Shown in pieces: positions 1 to 11,135 of a DNA stretch of 11,135 nt. The stretch is from Bacteroides sp. (GTDB lineage Bacteria; Bacteroidota; Bacteroidia; Bacteroidales; Bacteroidaceae): contig JAJPZL010000453.1 of NCBI GenBank assembly GCA_021204375.1, positions 1-11,135 of the forward strand, read 5' to 3'. The position numbers were made by a program, and so were the translations under genes. Position 1 is the first letter of the stretch. Each line of letters opens with the position of its first letter. The notes beneath the pieces were generated by a model. It was not told the DNA's origin, made no database searches, and worked only from the letters and a program-made list of their open reading frames with translations.

Positions 1-55
1 ACTTTTAATTGTTTAATGCACGGTAACACGGTTGTCTGATAAACACATATTATTT
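1..55 (+). other. Leader upstream of first gene; possible tail of a preceding gene
   Basis: Reading from base 1, an open frame runs for twelve codons to a TGA at 37-39 followed directly by TAA at 40-42. A tandem stop is compatible with the 3' end of an upstream gene, which would put the first recognisable gene here in the middle of an operon. The piece is too short to identify. I see no Bacteroidota-type promoter (TTTG plus a TAnnTTTG -7 box) and no convincing hairpin terminator, so the operon promoter probably lies outside the window. Confidence 0.25.
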
Positions 56-1294
56 ATGAAAAATATTCTCAAAAAACTTGGTCTTTTCTGGGCAACCATT
101 ACCCCCGGAATTTTTCTGGTTGGTTATAATATAGGAACGGGGAGCATCACCACGATGGCCTCTGCCGGAGCTTCCTATGGGATAGCTCTTACCTGAGCAT
201 TAGCTCTTTCCTGTCTATTTACCTATGTAATGGTTATTGCATTTTCGCGCTTTACGCTGGTAACAGGGCAGACGGCTCTTGGAGAGTATAAAAGACATTT
301 TGGAAAAGCGATTACTCTTTTTATCTTTTTCTCCCTGGTGATCAGTGAGACAGTTTCCTGTATGGGAGTAATGGGATTAGTAGCCCAGGTTATTCAGGAG
401 TGGTCCCGTCCTTTGACCGGCAGTGGAGAAGGATTCAGTATGGTATGGGTCACAATTATTATCAGTATGATCCTTTATTATATTTTCTGGCAGGGGAAAC
501 AGGGCTTTTTTGAGAAGATACTCAGCCTGTTTGTTTTTATTATGGGCCTCTGTTTCCTGATCACCATGTTTGTAGTAATGCCGGCTCCGGCTGATATAAT
601 GAAAGGACTTATTCCTACCATTCCTAATAAGCCGAATGCCTTTCTGATCGTGACAGGTATGGTAGGAACTACGATGGGGGGAGTTTTGTATGTGGTACGC
701 TCCATACTGTTCAGTGAAAAGGGCTGGGGTATAAGAGATATGAAGATCCAGAAGCGGGACGCGGCTGTTTCTGTTTCTATCATGTTCTTCCCGAGTTTTG
801 CCGTTATGGCCTGTGCGGCAGGTACGATGTTCCCGCTGGGCATTGAAGTGGATAATGCCATTGATATGGTGAAGCTGATGGAACCATTGGCCGGACAATT
901 AGCTGTTTCTCTTTTTGTGGCAGGTATTGTGTGTGCCGGAATCTCTTCTCTTTTCCCCATTATTGTATTGGGTCCGTGATTACTGAGCGATTATCTGGGA
1001 ATTGAGAGGGATCTTACTAAAAAGTGGGCTCGTCTTTTTGCGCTGGGAGTGCTTCTGTGTGGTTTGATCGTTCCGTTATTTGGCGGACGTCCTGTTTTTG
1101 TGATGATTCTTTCTCAATCTCTGGCCATTATTTCTACGCCTGTTATACTTATTCTTATGATCATTCTCCTGAACCGGAAAGAGATCATGAGCCGTTACAG
1201 GGCTACCTGGAAAGAGAATATTATCTATGGAATTACTTTCCTTTTTACAGTGATCGTATCCATTGTCGTGATAGTGGAAATTATTCAATCATAA
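56..1294 (+). pseudogene. Divergent NRAMP-fold transporter, two in-frame stops
   Basis: Restored length is 412 residues, normal for the NRAMP family of LeuT-fold inner-membrane transporters. The ATG at 56 gives a short basic N-terminus followed by TM1, and about eleven hydrophobic segments follow. Family resemblance is clearest in TM1 (TPGIFLVGYNIGTGS, residues 16-30) and in the TM6 region around residues 200-220. The classical metal-site motifs are not conserved: the DPGN of TM1 is replaced by IGTG, and the MPH of TM6 reads MGG (207-209). Divalent metal transport is therefore uncertain. Two TGA codons interrupt it, at 194-196 (residue 47, where the family usually has Trp) and 977-979 (residue 308); similarity continues in the same frame after each. 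Both look like TGG to TGA changes. The gene stops four bases before the sugar isomerase, which implies co-transcription. The position in a glycan operon suggests import of a degradation product or cofactor, but this is inference. Confidence 0.8.
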
Positions 1295-1298
1295 AGCT

Positions 1299-2272
1299 AT
1301 AAAAAAGAGTATAGATCCACATATTACCTGTGCTTTTCTCTATCCGATCACCCGGTATGGCTATCCACCCCCTGCCCGGGAGATGGAAGAGTATATCCGG
1401 GAGATGGCAGAGCTGGGCTTCCGTTCTGTGGAACTGGAGGGGATCGGAGGAGAGCATCTGACACAGGTATATGAAAAGCGTTTTTCTATCGGGAATGTCC
1501 TGGAAGAGTATGACCTGAAAGTACCTGTTTTTTGTACTGTATTACCCGGCCTTACTTCCGGGGAAAAGAGTGTTGTCAGGCACACAATGGAGCTTTTCCG
1601 GAAAGGATGTGAAACAGCTTGTTACCTGGATGCAAAGGGAGTTCTGGATAATGGACCTCTGCTGCCTTATCTCTTTCCGGAGGATATGGAGATCCACCGT
1701 CACTATACGCCCGGGGTACTCAGGTACGCTCATATTCCCGATGGACTTGTGTAAGGTCAGTGGTGGGATTGGGTAATAAAGTGTATGGATGAGGTGTATG
1801 ATATTACTTCTTCTTTCGGGCTGGATTACTACCTGCATCCCTGCATGGGAGTGCTTACCGATACCACGGATGCCTATCTGCTCTTAAAACGGGAACTGGG
1901 AAGAGCGAACCTGAAGTTTTGTCTGGATACGGCCAATCAGTTCTTTATGCGGGAGAATCTCCGGACTGCTCTCCGGGAGCTGGCCGGGGAGCTGGATTAT
2001 ATCCATCTTTCTGATACCGGTGGAGAGTGTATAGAACACCAACCTCCGGAAAAAGGCAAAATAGCCTGGGATGATTTTTTCGCTACTCTGAAAAGGATCG
2101 GTTTCAAGGGTAACATTGCGGTAGATGTAGGAGGAGAGGAGAGTCATATTACTGATCTGGACAACGCTTTTTTATATACTGCACAACTAATAGAAGAAAA
2201 ACTGGAATACTATGAATTTATTAAATGCTTATGGATGGCAGGGCTTATCTCCCTGAAGAGTTTTGCTGCTGA
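1299..2272 (+). pseudogene. Xylose-isomerase-like TIM-barrel sugar isomerase/epimerase, broken
   Basis: A cytoplasmic TIM-barrel protein of the AP-endonuclease-2/xylose-isomerase-like fold, a family of metal-dependent sugar (phosphate) isomerases and epimerases. Similarity begins at codon 1299, which is ATA; an original ATG here would give a start MKKSIDPHITCAFLYP four bases after the transporter stop. Recognisable blocks are VLDNGPLLPYLFPED (about residues 113-127), LHPCMGVLTDTTDAYL, LDTANQFF (probable metal ligand Asp), IHLSD and VDVGGEES, in the usual barrel order. A TAA at 1752-1754 (residue 152) interrupts it, probably from CAA. Near 2223 one A seems lost from an AAAA run; restoring it ends the protein at TGA 2270-2272 (324 residues) with a 61-base overlap with the next gene. 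Without it, the barrel reads straight into the GH28-like enzyme. The exact substrate cannot be read from sequence. Confidence 0.75.
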
Positions 2273-3635
2273 TTACGATGTACGTGATTTCGGGGCAGTA
2301 GGAGATGGGGACCGTGTCAATACGGAAGCTATTCAGCAGGCCATTGATGAGTGTGCAAAGCTGGGTGGCCGGGTACTTATTTCTCAGGGTAACTATGTTA
2401 CGGGAACGCTTTATCTCAAAAGCAATACTTCACTGGTTATAGAGCGTAACGCCCGCCTGACGGGATCGACTGATCTGGCGGATTATCCGCATAATAAGGT
2501 CGATTTCCGTTTCTGGAGCGATACCTGGATAAGCCAGGCCCTTATTATAGCACACAATGTAGAAAATATCTCTATTGAGGGAGAGGGTACTATTGATGGA
2601 CGGGGAGATGCTTTTCCGATGACGACCCGTAAAAAACCGGACAAATACCACAATCGTCCTTACTTGCTCTGGGTAGCCGATTGTAACCAGGTAACGGTAA
2701 AAGGGGTAGAACTTCGCAGTTCTGCCATGTGGATGCAGTCGTACATCCGTTGTGACAACCTTCGGATTGAGAACATCCGGATCTTTAATCATGCTAACAA
2801 TAACAATGATATGATTGATATTGACGGTTGCCGGGATGTAGTGATCACCGGTGTAATAGGGGATGCGGATGATGATGGGATCACCCTTAAAAGTACCTGC
2901 GATCGTATTAGTGAGAACATTGTTATCTCCAACTCTATTTTAAGCAGTCACTGCAATGCCCTTAAGTTCGGGACAGAAACTACGGCAGGATTCCGGAATG
3001 TGACCATTACCAATTGTATTATCCGTAAATCGGCTGTCAAAGAGGTTATTTCCGGAGCTCCCGAAGGCATCTGCGGACTGGCGCTGGAAATTGTGGACGG
3101 AGGTATTATGGAGAATATCAATATCAATAACCTGGTCATTGACGGACAGCGGGTACCGCTCTTTGTCCGGTTAGGGCACCGGGCCAGAAAACATTATGCA
3201 GAAGCCCCTGAACCTTCTGTGGGTAGTATGAAGGATATTATTCTTTCTAATATCACAGCGGTCGCTTCTTCGCCTATAGGGTGTTCCGTTACAGGAATTC
3301 CTTCCGGAAAAATTCAGGGTCTGACATTGGCCAACAGCCGTTTTATCTGCGTAGGAGGAGAAGATGCCTCCCTTATTCACAAGGAGGTGGAAGAGTTGGA
3401 GAAGGAATACCCGGAATCAAGCATATTCGGTATCCTACCTGCCTACGGACTCTATGTACGGCATGTAGAGAACTTTAACCTGTATGGAACTCATTTTGAA
3501 CTGACTGCCCCGGATGGACGTGCCACTATCATGTGTGATGATGTGGTAAACGGCTTTATACGAGATATTACCCTTAGTGGTAGCCAGGGAGGAGAAAAAG
3601 TAATGGTAAAAAACAGTGAGAATGTTCAGTATTAA
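2212..3635 (+). CDS. Exported GH28-like (polygalacturonase-type) pectin-lyase-fold glycosidase
   Basis: Predicted periplasmic glycosidase with a right-handed parallel beta-helix. The mature part starts at ADYDVRDFGAVGDG, the typical N-terminal motif of GH28 and related beta-helix enzymes, followed by repeated strand-turn units. Likely catalytic carboxylates are kept: NNNDMIDIDG (D200, D203, D205) and DADDDGI (D220-D222). The usual GHG turn is SHC instead (H247), so it is not a classical endo-polygalacturonase. ATG 2212 plus one restored A near 2223 gives a proper signal peptide, MNLLKCLWMAGLISLKSFA, and 474 residues. As the sequence stands, that ATG runs into a stop, and the enzyme is in frame only with the upstream isomerase or from ATG 2235, which leaves an 11-residue remnant too short for export. 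The enzyme body of about 455 residues is uninterrupted. The substrate could be a galacturonate-containing glycan or another alpha-linked sugar. Confidence 0.8.
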
Positions 3636-6175
3636 GGAAAATATAAAGAAGTGGAGCATGATCTGTCTGCTTTTTCCGGGGGGAGTCTCTCTCTTGGGGC
3701 AAAGCGCAGATATACCTATCCTTCCGTTACCGAAGGTAGCTGTTGTGGGAAAAACCTCTCCGGAGAAGATTGCCTGCGGAAAACTGACTTTCGGGTGGAA
3801 AGGCATCGATCCCTCTTTGTATAAAGCTATTGTTTCCGAGTTTGACCAGTTGGTTGTTCCTGCTTCCGGAGCTGCTTTAGAGGTAAATTGTGAAAAGATG
3901 ACTTCTGTAAAAGCCCTCAGAAACGTTTTAAAGGCGTTGGGACTGGATGAAAAGCTGGCAGAGAAAATAGGAGCAGAAGGATATATTATAGCAGGTGGGC
4001 AAAGAGGGTATCGGGTTATTGCAGGTAGTGATACCGGTATCTTGTACGGATTACAAAGTATCAAGCAACTTCTTCGGAGTGGCTATACTGTGGCGGATAT
4101 AAAGGTGGTAGACTGGTCGGATTTCTCCAGCCGTATCTTCTTTGATGATATCAGCCGGGGGTCGATCTCTACCGTAGAATTTGTCAAAGAACAGATCCGT
4201 CACTTATCGGAGATGAAATACAACGGTCTCACTTTTTATATAGAACATGTGGTACAGCCTGTATCCTATCCTGATTCTGCACCGGTGAACGGTAAGTTTA
4301 CCGTGGAAGATATACGGGAGATCTGTACCTATGCCCGGGAGTATCAGATGGAGGTAATAGGGGGTTTTCAATGTTTCGGACATTTTGAAAATATTCTTGC
4401 TGTAGAAAACTATGCTTCTCTGGGAGATACTCCTTCCATGATCGCTCCTCTGAACCCGGATGCCCGTAACTTTTTACAAACTATACTGGGAGAACTGGCG
4501 GATGCTTTTTCTTCGGATTATTTCAATATTAATTGTGACGAAGTGTGGGATCTGGGTAAAGACAAATCGGCTGTACAGGTGGCAGAGATCGGTGCAGACC
4601 GTTTCTTTGCAGACCATATTCTCTTTTTGCATCAAACCCTGGGAGCGAAAGGAAAAAAGATCATAATGTGGGGAGATATGATCATGAAGTATCCGCATCT
4701 TATGGATCGGCTTCCCCGGGATATTGTTTACCTCACCTGGAATTACGGAGGTACTGATTACGAACCCTGGCTGAAACCTTTCCGGGAGAGAAAAAGCCGT
4801 TTTATAGTATGTCCGGGTATACTTAACTCCAACCGTCTCTTTCCGGATCTGAATATGACCCGGGAGAATATACAATTTATTACCGATGGGTACAGGTCCG
4901 GTGCTTTGGGAGTAATTTATACCGCCTGAGACGACTCTTCTTTCCATAATTTTATTTCAACCCTGTATGGAGTGGCTTTGGCTGCTGAGCATAGCTGGAA
5001 CGCTACCCGTAGTACAGATCGCTTCTCATTCGAAAAACGTTATTGCACGATGCGTTTCGGAAAAGAGGAACCTGCTTTTCTTCGTACGCTGGATGCATTG
5101 ATGAAATTTGGTGAGATAGGGATTACGTACGAAATGAATGACCGTATTTTCTATGAGGGTTTTACTCCGGAACCCGGAAAATACTTGAATATCAATAAAG
5201 AAGAGATAGAAAAAGCACGTATTATCCTGAATGATGTATTAAAGGCCGCTTCCGGAATTGAGACAGACCGGGAGCATCCTGAAATAAAAGCATTGTTGTA
5301 TGCCGTTAAACAGTATCAGTTTATTGTGGAAAGCCGGGAAATACTTAGTTATGTCTCCAACTCTTATAAAGAGGCTCTCCGGGTAGCCCGAACAGAAAAA
5401 CACCAGGCCCGTTCCCGGTTATTACAGGCTGTTACTGAGGTCAACCGGTTGGAAGAACTTACTCTCTGGCTGAGAAATCAGTTTACCGGGATCTGGTTAT
5501 CTGAAAATCAATCCTACTCTCTCATAAGAGGTCTCGAACTTTATCAGTAGAAGTTGGCTCAGATCAAGAGAGTAAAAGCAGTGCTGGTGGAAAGTATCGA
5601 TACAATCGATCGGGGGGGAAGTGCCGGACGCTATAGAGAATACCGGCCTCGAAGTAAGAGAGGTAAACAGCAACTATTTTCCATGTTGGCTTTTTTGCGG
5701 AAGTTTTGAGAACGGTGAGCTGCATGAAGCCTACCTGGCCTATGCCGGAGGAGAAGCACAGGCTGATCCCATTCCGGGAGAACGATTTACCTATGCAGGA
5801 CAGGAGTATAAATGGACCCGGTATCTCTCTGAGAACGGATTCGTGATGGACTTTAACCGGGCCTGGTCTTCGGTTAATAACGGAATTGCTTATGCTACCG
5901 CAGTTCTGTATGCAGAAGAAGAGACTGAAATAGAGATCCTCTTTGGCGCCAGTGGGGAGAACCTGCTTTTCTGTAACGGGGAGCAGGTAGGCAGAACCGG
6001 TAAAGAGAATGAGTTCCTGGCTGATAAATATCGATGGATCGTGTCGTTAAAACCAGGCCCCAACCGGCTTATTCTTAAATCCAGGTAATTAGTGAATGAG
6101 TGGAAATTCTCCTTCCGGATTGATGGCAAGGTTGTTAAATCGCATAAACAAAATATTACCTGTATTAATCTATAA
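3622..6175 (+). pseudogene. GH20-type beta-N-acetylhexosaminidase with C-terminal accessory domain, four lesions
   Basis: Restored protein is 850 residues from ATG 3622, which overlaps the GH28-like stop by 14 bases; GTG 3616 is an alternative. Residues 1-29 form a signal peptide. An N-terminal zincin-like GH20b domain ends near SDTGILYGLQSIKQLL. The (beta/alpha)8 catalytic domain starts at DFSSRIFFDDISRG and carries the Asp-Glu pair expected for substrate-assisted GH20 catalysis in NCDEVWD (D306-E307). A helical region follows, then a beta-rich C-terminal domain (about 665-850) that may bind carbohydrate. Lesions are TGA 4927 (residue 436, in the TA-W-DDSS motif, so Trp is lost), TAG 5548 (residue 643), one extra G in the seven-G run 5612-5618, and TAA 6086 (residue 822). 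Reading resumes correctly after each. Expected role: release of terminal GlcNAc or GalNAc in the periplasm. Any product from the present sequence would stop inside the catalytic barrel. Confidence 0.85.
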
Positions 6176-6186
6176 AACCAATATGT

Positions 6187-7431
6187 ATGAATAAGTATCT
6201 TATTTTATTAATGACCCTGATAACTGTCAGTACCAGTTGTACCCAGGCACAATCTTCTCCTATCAGGAATGAGTTGCTCAAGGCAATGAATGAGTGTACC
6301 GACTATGCAGTCAATATACTGCTGGATGAGGAGGGGAAATCACGGTGTGATTATAACCTTGTCCGGGGAGAATGGTTTCCCTATGAAGAGCCCTGGCATA
6401 CCGGACAGATCATACTCGGACTGGTAGATGTGTATGAAATTACTCGGAATGAAACCGCTCTGGCAGCTGCAAGGAGAGCTGGGGATTGGTGGATCGGCAT
6501 GGAGATTAAAGATCATCCTAAATTAAAAGGGATGGTGGCTGCTACCCACGGTGATGTAGTAGGGAACAACCAGATCGTATTTGCTACCATCAGTGACGGT
6601 ACCCACGGTATCTATGAACTGAGTCGGGTAACAGGCGATCAGAAGTATGCCCGGGTAGCTACCGGGGCTGCTACCCGGATGCTGGAGAATATGTACTATC
6701 CTGAAGAGGGAGTTTGTTATGATCTGGTTGATCTGGCTACGGGAGAGATCCTGAAACAGGATAGTCCGTTCCATTGGGACAAGGAGATCCAAAGTCTGGA
6801 AGATGTCTCCCGACCCAATACGGAAGGTTCTCCTTTCAAGGATGCCTATCTCTTTACCAAGGAGGAACGTTTTAAAGAGGCTCACCTTCTGTTGTGTAAC
6901 TCCCTGATCGAAAAACAGAATAAAGATGGGATCTGGATGGATTATATGCCTAACCATAAAAAGGTCTCCTCTTTCCATCCACGTTTTAATCTCTGGTATG
7001 CCGAGTCGTTGCTGGAAGCCTACGAACTGACGGGAGATAAAAAATACCTCGAGGCAGCTGCTAAAACCGCCCGCACTTATGCAAAGGCCCAACGGGCGGA
7101 TGGTACCCTGTACTACGATAACTATACAGATGGTAAACCCTCTGATAAAGGCTCCGTATATGGTTCGGCTATAGCTTTTGCCGGTATTCTCTGGATCAGG
7201 CTGGCTGAGTATGGATACGATGAGTTTATTCCTCATTATGAAAAGAGCATTGCCTGGATATTGAAAAACCAGTATGCCATGGATCATCCTGATCCTAATC
7301 TGCGCGGAGCGGTGGTCAATACCCGGATGCACCATCGTAAAGGAGAAGTGTGGCTTACCCAACGGGATGTAGGCACCTCTTTCGGGCTTCGCTTTATGGC
7401 TGCCTATTATAATCTCAGATTTAATAACTAA
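6187..7431 (+). CDS. Exported (alpha/alpha)-barrel, six-hairpin glycosidase-like protein
   Basis: An uninterrupted 414-residue protein. The N-terminus MNKYLILLMTLITVSTSC resembles a signal peptide; the Cys could be a relaxed lipobox (STSC), or signal peptidase I could cut near TQAQ, so lipoprotein status is open. The remainder is helical hairpins with the recurring pattern of (alpha/alpha)6 carbohydrate enzymes: GLVDVYEITRNETALAAARRAGDWW near residues 78-102 and LLEAYELTGDKKYLEAAAKTARTYAKAQ later. Conserved-looking polar and aromatic clusters include EPWHTGQ, SPFHWDKE, DGIWMDY and GEVWLTQRDVGTS, which probably line a sugar-binding cleft. GH88/GH105 unsaturated uronyl hydrolases, GlcNAc 2-epimerase-like proteins and glucuronyl C5-epimerase C-terminal domains share this fold; I cannot choose among them. 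Eleven bases separate it from the GH20 stop and 13 from the nagB-like start. It is one of two genes here with no visible lesion. Confidence 0.65.
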   Translation: MNKYLILLMTLITVSTSCTQAQSSPIRNELLKAMNECTDYAVNILLDEEGKSRCDYNLVRGEWFPYEEPWHTGQIILGLVDVYEITRNETALAAARRAGDWWIGMEIKDHPKLKGMVAATHGDVVGNNQIVFATISDGTHGIYELSRVTGDQKYARVATGAATRMLENMYYPEEGVCYDLVDLATGEILKQDSPFHWDKEIQSLEDVSRPNTEGSPFKDAYLFTKEERFKEAHLLLCNSLIEKQNKDGIWMDYMPNHKKVSSFHPRFNLWYAESLLEAYELTGDKKYLEAAAKTARTYAKAQRADGTLYYDNYTDGKPSDKGSVYGSAIAFAGILWIRLAEYGYDEFIPHYEKSIAWILKNQYAMDHPDPNLRGAVVNTRMHHRKGEVWLTQRDVGTSFGLRFMAAYYNLRFNN

Positions 7432-7444
7432 ACTATTAATACGT

Positions 7445-8218
7445 ATGAAAAATGAAATAAAAACTATTCAGGTAGACTCCCTCAGGGTACGGGTCTATGA
7501 AACCCGCCGGGAGATGGGAATAGCAGCCTATGAACTCTATAAACAATATATTACCGGGCTGCTGGCAGAACAACAAAAGATAAGGAGCATATTTGCTGCT
7601 GCCCATTCACAGGATGATTTTCTGACAGCACTTGTCACAGACCAGGAGATCGACTTTACCCGTATTACCGCTTTTCATATAGATGAGTATATGGGGCTGA
7701 GGAAAGAGGCCCCTCAGAACTTCGGGAACTTTCTTCGCAAGGCTATTTTTTCGAAAAAACCTTTTGAGCGGGTACATTATGTGAATTCCGGTGCTGAGGA
7801 TGTAACTGCCGAATGCAGCAGGTATGAAGCTCTGCTCAGAGAAAGCCCCCTCGATATAGTCAGTATAGGGATCTGTGAGAACGGGCATGTAGCCTTTAAC
7901 GATCCTCACGAGGCTAAGTTTACAGAATCTGCCTGGGTAAGAGAAACTACTCTGGATAGGGTCTGTCGCCAGCAGCAGGTGAACGATGGAGAGTTTGAGT
8001 CGTTGGAGCAGGTTCCTGAAAGTGCTCTTACGCTAACCATACCGGCCCTTATGTCCTGTAAAAAAGTAATATGTATTGTTCCTACTGCCAGTAAAGCGGA
8101 TGCTGTTTATGAGACGTTTTATGGAAGTGTTTCCGAAGTCTGTCCGGCTTCTGTCTTACGAACTCATCCCCATGCAACGCTCTTCCTTGACAAGGAAGCA
8201 GCCAGCCGAATCTTATAA
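7445..8218 (+). CDS. Glucosamine-6-phosphate deaminase (NagB) family protein
   Basis: An uninterrupted 257-residue cytoplasmic protein of the NagB/SugarP-isomerase family (E. coli NagB is 266). These enzymes convert glucosamine-6-phosphate to fructose-6-phosphate and ammonia. HIDEYMGL (residues 78-85) matches the FNMDEYVGL block with the catalytic Asp; GICENGHVAFNDP (142-154) matches the GIGxxGHIAFNEP loop; and the later blocks RQQQVNDG, LTLTIPALMSC and RTHP are family-like. Two positions differ from E. coli NagB: the active-site Asp141 is Asn146 here and Glu148 is Asp153, as in a paralogous NagB-like group in Bacteroidota, so the exact substrate may differ. Cys144 replaces the glycine usual in GIG, which may be a decay mutation. 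With the upstream hexosaminidase it points to an amino-sugar-containing substrate. The start ATG at 7445 is 13 bases past the previous stop, with no strong ribosome binding site. Confidence 0.85.
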   Translation: MKNEIKTIQVDSLRVRVYETRREMGIAAYELYKQYITGLLAEQQKIRSIFAAAHSQDDFLTALVTDQEIDFTRITAFHIDEYMGLRKEAPQNFGNFLRKAIFSKKPFERVHYVNSGAEDVTAECSRYEALLRESPLDIVSIGICENGHVAFNDPHEAKFTESAWVRETTLDRVCRQQQVNDGEFESLEQVPESALTLTIPALMSCKKVICIVPTASKADAVYETFYGSVSEVCPASVLRTHPHATLFLDKEAASRIL

Positions 8219-8236
8219 TTTAAAAACGTTACAATC

Positions 8237-11135
8237 ATGAAAAACATTTATCGTAATTTTTTAGTCATGGTCGCCTTCTTATTGCCGTTGGTGGCCTATG
8301 CTCAGGGGAAAGGGAATTTGTGGGGAACCGTAAAAGATGAAACGGGCGAGGTATTGCCCGGTGCTGCTGTGATGGTAAAAGGTACTACGCTGGGTAGTGC
8401 TACCGACCTGAACGGCTCTTATATAGTACAGGGGATTCCTGCCGGTACGGTGGATATTGTGGTGAACTATCTGGGGTATGAGCCGGTGACCCGGGAATTT
8501 ACCATAACCAATGGAGGTACTACTACGGCCGATTTTGTACTCTCACAATCTGCTATTGCATTGGGAGATATCGTGATCTCTGCGGCTGTGGACGGCCAGT
8601 AACGTGTCCTTAACCAGCAGAAAGTCGCTGATAATATGATGCAGGTTGTTTCGGCAGACCAGATGGGACGTTTTCCCGACCTGAATGTGTCGGATGCCCT
8701 TCGCCGCCTCAGTGGGGTAACTTCCGACGGAAAAGAGGTACAGCTCCGGGGAACTCCTGCCAACTTTACCAGTATCAATGTGAACAGTGAACAGGTTATG
8801 AGTAGCCAGGAGGGTGGAAAGAGAAACGAGTCACTGGATGTGATCCCTTCGAATATTCTCTCTTCCATGGAGGTACAGAAAACGCTGTTACCTTCCAACG
8901 ATGGAGATGCCATTGCCGGAGTGATCAATATGCGTACGGGAACCGCCCGTTCACTCAATCCAAAATTTACACTTGATCTGGGAACCGGTTGTAACTTCCT
9001 GCGTAACGATATGAATTATAATGTAAAGGGTAGTTATGCACAACGATACTTTGCTACCGATAAAAATCAGGGTGGAGTATTAGGGTTACGGTTTAATTAT
9101 AGTTACCTGACAGAACATATCGGATATGACCGTCTGGAAGCTCAGGCCTGGGAACCGGCTAAACTGACGGATTATGTTACCGGAGAGGTAATAGATGAAG
9201 CAGCCTATATGCCTACCGACTTCCGTTACCGGTACCAGATGCTTACTACAAAGCGTCACGGCGGTGCTCTGACACTAGACTGGGCTCCCAACCAGAACAC
9301 CAAGTTTATTCTCAGTACTATTTATAACCAACGGGAAGAGGATGGAGATCGTTACCGCAACCGGACCCGTTTTCGCGATAACGGAAGTTATTTCCTGATG
9401 GAAGATGGCAGTATCGGTTCCAAACGTATGCAAAATATTCCTAGGTAACTACTTCACTGGAAACAGTACGGAATATCAATATCAACCTTGACGGAGAGTC
9501 TACCATTGATAGCTGGAAAGTGGACGGAGGTGTTTTTTATACCAAATCCAGTAGAAGTTATGAAAGTAGTATGTATGGATTCCGTACTCCCGACTGGCGT
9601 GCCGACAGAACTACAGGTGGTATTAGTATTCCTTCCTCCGACGTAATTGGAGTTATACCGGCTGTTGAAAAGTATCTCAATGCCAGCTATATTTACCAGC
9701 CTGGTGAGGGGGTTCCGGCACTGGATGCTGTATCCCGTTATAATTTCTACAATGTGGAGAACTGGAACCATGAGACCCGTGGAAATAATTTTACTGTAAG
9801 AGCCAATGCTTCCAAAAACTATTTCATTGGTAATAATGCTTCTATACTTTCGTTTGATGCCAAGGCTAAATTTATGCAGAACCGGGGATATGTGCCTGGT
9901 GATGTATGGAATTACGATATCAATGCCAGTGATAATAACTGGCTTACCAATATGCTCTACAAAGAGCAGTTATCCGGTAACTTTTTGAATAATCACCTTG
10001 GTTTTGGTATAGCACCGGATGCTTCTAAAGTGCAGGCCTATATGAATAACAGCGCCAACAGCGGGGATATTGTATTGAATGAATATACCTCCAATGTGGC
10101 TCGGGATGCTTACTTTTACAATGCTCATGAAAATGTAACATCCGGTTATATTATGAATAAGATCCAGTTTGAAAAGCTGATGTTCCTCGCAGGTGCCCGT
10201 ATAGAAGCTACCAACGTGACCTACAAAGCGAATGAGATTGAGAGATTCGTAAATCCGGACACACCTGTTCAGAACGGGGATGAAGATAATTTTAATGACT
10301 ATCATCTTACTCCTGTCAAAGAGAGCCAGAACTATATAAAAGTGTTACCTAATATCCAGTTCAAATATGATTTAATAGATCGTTCTGTTTTCCGTCTGGC
10401 TTATACCACCGGATATTCACGGCCCAATATCAGCGAACTAGTTCCCAAACAGGATGTGGCGCAGGAAACCCAGCGGGTAAATATTGGTAATCCCGATCTG
10501 AAGCCGGCTTATGCTCATAATATAGACCTGTTGTTTGAACAATATCTCTTCAACGTAGGTCTTCTTTCCGGAGGTTTCTTCTTTAAACATATCAATCAGT
10601 TCCAGTATGTGAACTAGGGTATTGTACACGACTCTTCCAGTTCGTATGACGGATGGCAACTGATACAGACTAAAAATGGAGATGCCGCTAAATTATATGG
10701 AGCGGAAGTAACCCTGAACAGCAACCTCTCTTTCCTTCCGGGATTTTTGAAGAACCTGCTTTTTACCAGTAACTATACCTACATTCATTCCAACGCTGTT
10801 ACGGAAGAGGATAGAGGTAGTATGCGTCTTCCCGGACAGGCTAAACATACAGCAAACTTTGCACTGGCCTATTCAGTAAAACGTTTTACCCTTCAGGCAG
10901 CTATGAACTATAACGGAGCTTATATCATGGCACTTGGATCGGATGAAGACCGGGACATCTGGAGAGACGAACGCTGGCAGTTAGATCTTAACGATTCTGT
11001 ACAATTGGCCAAAGGTCTTACTCTCTGGACAGAGGCTGTGAATGTACTCAGTAGTGAAGCATTTACCTACTTTGGAGATAAGAGCCGTGTGTATAACCTC
11101 CAGTATAACGGTGCTAACGGACGGGTGGGGGGGGG
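8237..11135 (+). pseudogene. TonB-dependent outer-membrane receptor, three lesions, 3'-truncated by window end
   Basis: Outer-membrane importer. Residues 1-23 are a signal peptide ending AYAQ. A carboxypeptidase-regulatory-like domain follows (LWGTVKDETGEVLPGAAVMVKGT, to about 105), then the plug (QMGRFPDLNVSDALRRLSGV, about 145-230) and a long 22-strand-type barrel. The plug signature GRFPDLNVSDAL and the preceding RVLNQQK are typical of TonB receptors related to the Caulobacter oligosaccharide type, which usually work without SusD; a SusD gene downstream cannot be excluded. Lesions: TAA 8600-8602 (residue 122, between the N-terminal domain and the plug), loss of one base near 9443 (the frame shifts; restoring a G gives IPRVTTSLETV), and TAG 10615-10617 (residue 794, inside the barrel, probably from CAG). 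About 965 codons are present, and the sequence ends in a run of G before the last strand is complete. It sits 18 bases after the nagB-like gene and so belongs to the same operon. Confidence 0.88.
11127..11135. repeat. Terminal run of nine Gs
   Basis: The window ends in an uninterrupted stretch of nine Gs straight after GGACGGGT. It falls where the receptor's last beta strand should be coded, and the encoded Gly-Gly is not the aromatic-ended C-terminus such proteins need. The run may be a read artefact at a contig edge rather than genomic sequence. Confidence 0.6.

Follow-up and report, generated by a model that had tools for sequence, protein, structure and literature searches.

A broken glycan-utilisation operon that probably samples recent, genome-wide gene decay in a Bacteroides species and its sister

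An 11,135-nucleotide stretch of DNA from Bacteroides sp. (contig JAJPZL010000453.1 of assembly GCA_021204375.1; hereafter designated the window) carries seven co-oriented genes of a glycan-utilisation operon, encoding an NRAMP transporter, a xylose-isomerase-like protein, glycoside hydrolases (GH) of families GH28 and GH20, a GH127-like hydrolase, NagB, and a SusC-type TonB receptor, of which all but the GH127-like hydrolase and NagB genes, which are open, are damaged. The locus raises the question of whether one nutritional pathway has very recently been silenced, as a preliminary description made from the letters proposed, whether the consensus of the contig is in error, or whether the damage reaches beyond the operon. 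Our analysis points, with good though not full confidence, to the last of these: the window very likely samples a Bacteroides-type genome in early, rapid, genome-wide degradation, that is, a real, recent, and parallel decay as in young host-restricted symbionts.

The lesions themselves, described as eight in-frame stops, one-base indels, and a lost start codon in five of the seven genes, were borne out by the sequence and by alignment with a close relative. A contig scan for relatives of the window gave two loci, among them L012, a contig of the sister species Bacteroides sp. MAG C.2_15 (MAG, metagenome-assembled genome; designated G061), which aligned at 91.7% identity over window positions 1–11123 and had a sense codon at each of the eight stop positions, so that intact copies of each position exist. 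Family motifs had been said to read through on both sides of the lesions, and indeed the same families matched the flanking pieces of the NRAMP, isomerase, and TonB receptor genes; since the same families flank the lesions and L012 aligns over nearly the whole window, chance reading frames are excluded. Comparison with the orthologous operon, which the preliminary description had recommended, nevertheless revealed that the copy in L012 (positions 1309–12419) is also broken, at other sites, several of them in G runs, and including both genes that are open in the window. Between the genome that holds the window (designated G000) and G061, the ratio of nonsynonymous to synonymous substitution rates (dN/dS) was 0.124 over the window versus 0.044 for rpoBC, indicating selection on these genes through most of their history and a decay that is recent. 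In an rpoB search of 158 same-genus genomes including G000, one relative was found at 93% (G119, very likely identical to G061) and the next at 81%, and a DNA search for the operon in 60 related genomes (36 of the same genus) gave only weak, partial matches, in 5 of them.

G000 is a fragmented MAG of 3.30 Mb in 506 contigs, 79% complete, in which the window is the entire contig C11. Lesions were called with a coding-potential hidden Markov model (HMM), in which penalised read-through stops and frameshifts are allowed, run on stretches of several genomes: 58 loci of G000, taken by contig number except for the window, C61 (rpoB), and C262 (ribosomal genes); a main set of 24 loci of G061, four of them chosen because they hold the operon, rpoB, mutS, or mutL, and a second set of 20 taken by number; and, as controls, 20 loci of the complete same-genus genome G021 and five loci each of the same-genus assemblies G008, G010, G028, and G004. 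Two more sets, mostly picked via earlier search matches (76 lesions in 179 kb at 13 loci of G061 and 33 in 66 kb at 7 loci of G000), were excluded from the rates. In G000, 232 lesions were called within 469 kb of coding sequence, or 0.49 per coding kb, and in G061 97 in 274 kb and 65 in 194 kb for the main and second sets, respectively (0.34–0.35 per kb), whereas the controls overall gave 0.04–0.06 per kb, with 7 lesions in 193 kb of coding sequence in G021, 1 in 19 kb in G008, 1 in 26 kb in G010, 2 in 52 kb in G028, and 3 in 52 kb in G004. Gene models of at least 600 nt carried a nonsense or frameshift lesion in 117 of 271 cases (about 43%) in G000 and in 63 of 155 and 39 of 122 in the two G061 sets, compared with 7 of 113 in G021. 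Among the SusD-domain matches listed (150 of 262, counted by hand), stops were present in 6 of 20 in G000 and 3 of 30 in G061, and in 0 of 69 and 0 of 31 in the control genomes G021 and G026, respectively.

The window ranked 22nd in lesion rate among the 58 G000 loci, 21 loci being worse, so that it is average for the sampled genome and the operon is not special. Silencing confined to this operon, with the rest of the genome healthy and one nutritional pathway lost, is suggested by lesions sitting in one co-oriented operon, but is refuted by a sampled-genome rate equal to that of the window, and we regard it as very improbable. The count of broken genes elsewhere in the genome thus failed to bear out a loss specific to the whole operon; what survives of the proposed recent silencing is pseudogenisation, which is favoured because core genes are spared (see below), and not the loss of a single pathway. 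Five of the seven operon genes have probably lost their function, as a side effect of the decay and not because the operon was its target. Coding density is still about 91%, indicating that deletion has hardly begun, and the GC content at fourfold degenerate sites (GC4) is about 0.53.

Ten long pieces were recognised on lesion-dense contigs, each lying on such a contig and not necessarily being the broken gene: an AcrB-type pump, an outer membrane efflux protein, NAGLU, an ABC transporter, a sulfite/nitrite reductase, a sigma-54 regulator, a thiamine-diphosphate enzyme, a sensor kinase, an alpha-L-fucosidase, and a contractile-injection tape-measure protein. Ten long pieces on lesion-free contigs comprised two SufB/D proteins, PriA, ribonucleotide reductase, a 7TM-HD protein, GH106, GH77, a glycogen debranching enzyme, a fucose-pyrophosphorylase-type protein, and a TonB-receptor-type protein; from the carbohydrate genes among them, some carbohydrate functions appear to survive. 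The tape-measure piece of the contractile injection system (L130:4610–6217, on G000 contig C37) lies on a lesion-rich contig, and a machine of this kind may be decaying.

Whether such lesions are errors or decay was judged from essential genes, using a panel of 127 Escherichia coli K-12 core proteins located in the sampled loci and a binomial test; the cut was passed by 28 of the 127 core names in G000, with tufA and tufB sharing one position, and by 8 in G061. The core genes of G000 contained 1 lesion in 29.9 kb versus 231 in 439 kb elsewhere (p = 3.9e-6), the sole lesion falling in a map-like gene, possibly a paralog, and those of G061 contained 0 in 14.3 kb versus 97 in 259 kb elsewhere (p = 0.0055). 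Because rpoB and rplB were already known to be open on the fetched contigs, the test was repeated without them. Omission of the two contigs chosen for core genes left 1 lesion in 19.6 kb versus 231 in 438 kb in G000 (p = 4.4e-4), and omission of the contigs fetched for rpoB, mutS, and mutL left 0 in 6.0 kb versus 92 in 245 kb in G061, a non-significant difference (p = 0.11). The case for the sparing of core genes is therefore strong for G000 and suggestive only for G061. Moreover, rpoB is open in both genomes, one G000 contig carries ten ribosomal protein genes free of stops (rplB being partial), and only the map-like gene had an internal stop among the 34 panel core genes with a G000 match. 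Matches to tRNA-synt_1 were stop-free in G000 (four) and G061 (two), and one match in the control G026 contained a stop.

Consensus or assembly error, including cytosine-deamination damage, could have made both the stops and the homopolymer indels, and several features suit it: both genomes are fragmented MAGs, many of the indels lie in homopolymers and the stops are of the C-to-T type, the L012 contig has a coverage of about 9x, the absence of shared lesions is what random error would give, and the core test in G061 is weak without the chosen contigs. Random error should, however, ignore essentiality, and the lesions avoid essential genes in the same G000 assembly, the check by which the preliminary description would have told error from pseudogenisation. 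Furthermore, the four other sampled same-genus assemblies are clean, lesions tend to fall in shared stretches of the two separate assemblies (albeit not at 1.5-kb bins), and the lesion-bearing genes have a raised dN/dS, as detailed below; error is thus disfavoured, and we consider it improbable. The continuation of frames and domains beyond the stops would also be expected if stop codons were recoded or read through and the genes remained functional. All three stop codons are involved, however (TAG 62, TGA 30, and TAA 26 in G000), frameshifts are as common as stops (118 and 114), and the core genes of the panel contain next to no internal stops; because all three stops as well as frameshifts occur, recoding is rejected as scarcely credible.

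The two species appear to have been damaged separately. In 24 aligned blocks (147 kb), 45 HMM lesions of G000 and 38 of G061 were called, of which two match in place and type, both being ordinary gene junctions; thus no shared lesion was found in the 147 kb aligned, all sites with a stop in both genomes being gene junctions. Four lesion pairs nearly coincided (within 60 nt), one of which is a junction and the rest distinct events at neighbouring places. Nevertheless, 16 of 120 1-kb bins were shared against 7.8 expected (p = 1.6e-4), and 14 against 7.4 expected after the pairs within 60 nt were dropped (p = 0.002; p = 0.005 with 2-kb bins, but p = 0.32 with 1.5-kb bins). A tendency of both genomes toward damage in the same stretches is thus suggestive, not firm. 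Among non-core genes, the 33 bearing lesions had a higher dN/dS than the 45 free of them (difference, 0.029; permutation p = 0.018), the values being 0.123 for genes broken in G000 or in both genomes, 0.090 for those broken in G061 only, 0.089 for clean non-core genes, and 0.062 for core genes. All classes are far below 1, which again argues for a recent decay. As a separate observation, dS was lower in lesion-bearing genes (0.22–0.24 for those broken in G000 or both) than in clean genes (0.36), perhaps reflecting recent exchange between the species.

The mutations that produced the lesions have a marked signature. Of the 36 stop calls for which a partner codon could be aligned, 26 are single-step transitions and 2 transversions, 4 needed two steps, and 4 are the same stop in both genomes; one of the 26 transitions is a gene junction, leaving 25:2. 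With opportunities of 0.19 transitions per transversion, the per-opportunity ratio is about 64 (67 for 26:2, with a 95% range of 17–580), and at fourfold sites, summed over eight pairs, transitions and transversions numbered 992:793. Every nonsense transition is C>T or G>A, a pattern that loss of ung or DNA damage would fit as well. One-base coding indels numbered 18 in runs of at least 6, of which the aligned coding sequence of G000 has about 155, versus 38 in runs of 1–2 (91,896 runs), and coding indels that break the frame outnumbered those in multiples of three by 87 to 14. A methylation-motif consensus error was also considered as a source of the stops; by eye, the stop contexts had no common motif.

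DNA repair genes are themselves among those hit. In G061, mutS (L113:62–2650) and mutL (L114:3394–5256) each contain one internal stop in reading frames that are otherwise well conserved, and G021 and G026 have sense codons at these sites, so that the sequence indicates a loss of mismatch repair in this species. A search for the ung family found none in G000 or G061, which are 79% and 84% complete (the latter if G061 is G119), so that the absence may reflect incompleteness, and found it present in G021 and G026; loss of ung in both genomes appears likely. Natural mismatch-repair mutators have a transition bias and homopolymer slippage, and both are also seen here; in contrast, about 40% of genes are broken in the present case, a loss that, to our knowledge, described mutators do not as a rule undergo, and the mutS and mutL stops were observed only in the sister.

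Within the decay reading, repair might have been lost first, a mutator state and not relaxed selection then driving the decay in both species. The mutS and mutL stops in G061, the failure to find ung in either genome, the strong transition bias, and the excess of homopolymer indels would all agree with such an order of events. On the other hand, mutS and mutL have just one lesion each, which could itself have arisen late in the decay, nonsense mutations are not brought to fixation by a mutator state on its own, and the G000 loci of both genes fall in assembly gaps; we regard this order as somewhat unlikely. A broader proposal, that the two species form a Bacteroides clade in mutational meltdown, in which uracil and mismatch repair were lost early, a loss that now makes both species shed the same accessory functions separately and in parallel, seems to us rather unlikely and is offered tentatively; if it were true, gene loss in Bacteroides would be observable at its first step, before deletion. 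The loss of repair may be a cause or a consequence of the decay, and the same pair of species could show whether it precedes or follows relaxed selection.

Genome-wide decay in both species may best be explained as follows. Selection on much of the accessory genome would have been relaxed recently in both lineages, most likely through confinement of each to a stable life, supplied with nutrients or in a small population, presumably restricted to a host, and the loss of DNA repair (the mutS and mutL stops in the sister and the ung not found in either) probably accelerated the decay by making transitions and slippage in homopolymers more frequent. A host-restricted lifestyle is a plausible setting. 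Several points weigh against this reading in addition to the non-significant core test in G061 and the incompleteness of both genomes. The lack of any shared lesion would imply two recent, independent onsets, which require a common cause; co-location of the lesions vanished with 1.5-kb bins (11 shared versus 9.6 expected, p = 0.32); and the genes broken only in G061 (6) had no raised dN/dS compared with the clean ones. The G000 loci of mutS and mutL being in gaps, repair loss is unproven there, and polarised missense changes of C>T versus T>C were 49:21 in G000 and 14:22 in G061, the excess in G000 fitting DNA damage as well as ung loss; core-gene polarised missense changes numbered only 10. 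The lesion calls were judged from the assembled consensus; the HMM called 6 events in the window as compared with about 12 real lesions, and thus misses about half. It also makes false calls: of the 36 stops compared with a partner codon, 5 (at 4 sites) face a stop and are gene junctions.

Young mass pseudogenisation is mostly known from insect endosymbionts among Proteobacteria; one recent insect symbiont is SOPE, a member of the genus Sodalis with a weevil host. Of the candidate genes of SOPE, 43.4% are reported to be pseudogenes (by frameshifts, premature stops, and truncations) in a genome that is still large, a value close to the broken share in G000; SOPE also has a massive expansion of insertion sequences, a known host insect, and strain HS as an intact close relative (PMC3914690). 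No intact close relative of G000 was found, in contrast, and here two sister species erode separately. Another metagenome bin, Burkholderia sp. Lv-StB of Lagria beetles, is reported to have pseudogenes in 45.29% of its open reading frames (ORFs), degraded DNA repair with mutS missing, a coding density of 59%, a loss of GC, and 159 transposase ORFs (PMC7042692). It resembles the present case in its large pseudogene share, in its recovery from a metagenome, and in the repair genes hit (mutS carrying a stop in G061 and missing in Lv-StB); the stage of G000, with a coding density of about 91% and GC4 of about 0.53 versus the 59% and GC loss of Lv-StB, looks earlier (PMC7042692). Judged by sequence, the process appears to work like nascent genome degradation, a known kind of process. 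In a literature search with sparse coverage of subscription journals and preprints, no listed paper described a pseudogene-rich Bacteroides. Two sister Bacteroides eroding separately would amount to replicated evolution, from which it could be asked which functions go first and whether the same genes go in both; such lineages also carry a warning, as a fragmentary MAG from one of them may yield misleading gene calls and completeness scores.

The individual genes of the operon, all on the forward strand of the window, carry their lesions as follows, all three stop codons being represented. The NRAMP-type metal transporter gene (56–1294; PF01566, E = 2.4e-36 on 230–979) has stops at 194 and 977, where L012 has sense codons. 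The xylose-isomerase-like TIM-barrel gene (1299–2214; PF01261 on both pieces) has lost its start codon at 1299–1301 and has a stop at 1752, and a frame-breaking one-base deletion relative to L012 near 2215 makes it run into the GH28 polygalacturonase-type gene (2212–3635; PF00295, E = 2.9e-15), the frame of which is out of register with its start by the same deletion. The GH20 hexosaminidase-type gene (3622–6160, ends approximate; PF00728 and PF02838 on the first piece) is interrupted by stops at 4927, 5548, and 6086, its frame is broken at 5612 by one extra base in a G run, and the loss of one base near 6150 changes only its last residues; its later pieces have no Pfam match but can be aligned to L012. 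The two open genes, encoding a GH127-like glycoside hydrolase (6187–7431; PF07944, E = 1.7e-10) and a NagB-like glucosamine-6-phosphate isomerase (7445–8218; PF01182, E = 5.8e-14), are those whose L012 counterparts have an internal stop and a frameshift near the end, respectively. The SusC-type TonB-dependent receptor gene with a carboxypeptidase-regulatory N domain (8237–11135, to the contig end; PF13715, PF00593, and PF14905) has stops at 8600 and 10615 and a frame-breaking one-base indel near 9442.

An Rfam search of the window gave no match. At positions 11127–11135, the contig terminates in a G run unlike the sister sequence, probably an artefact of the assembly end. In the start region of the NRAMP gene (window 56–1294; L012:1309–2572), two one-base indels about 30 nt apart cancel each other between the species, changing about ten residues.

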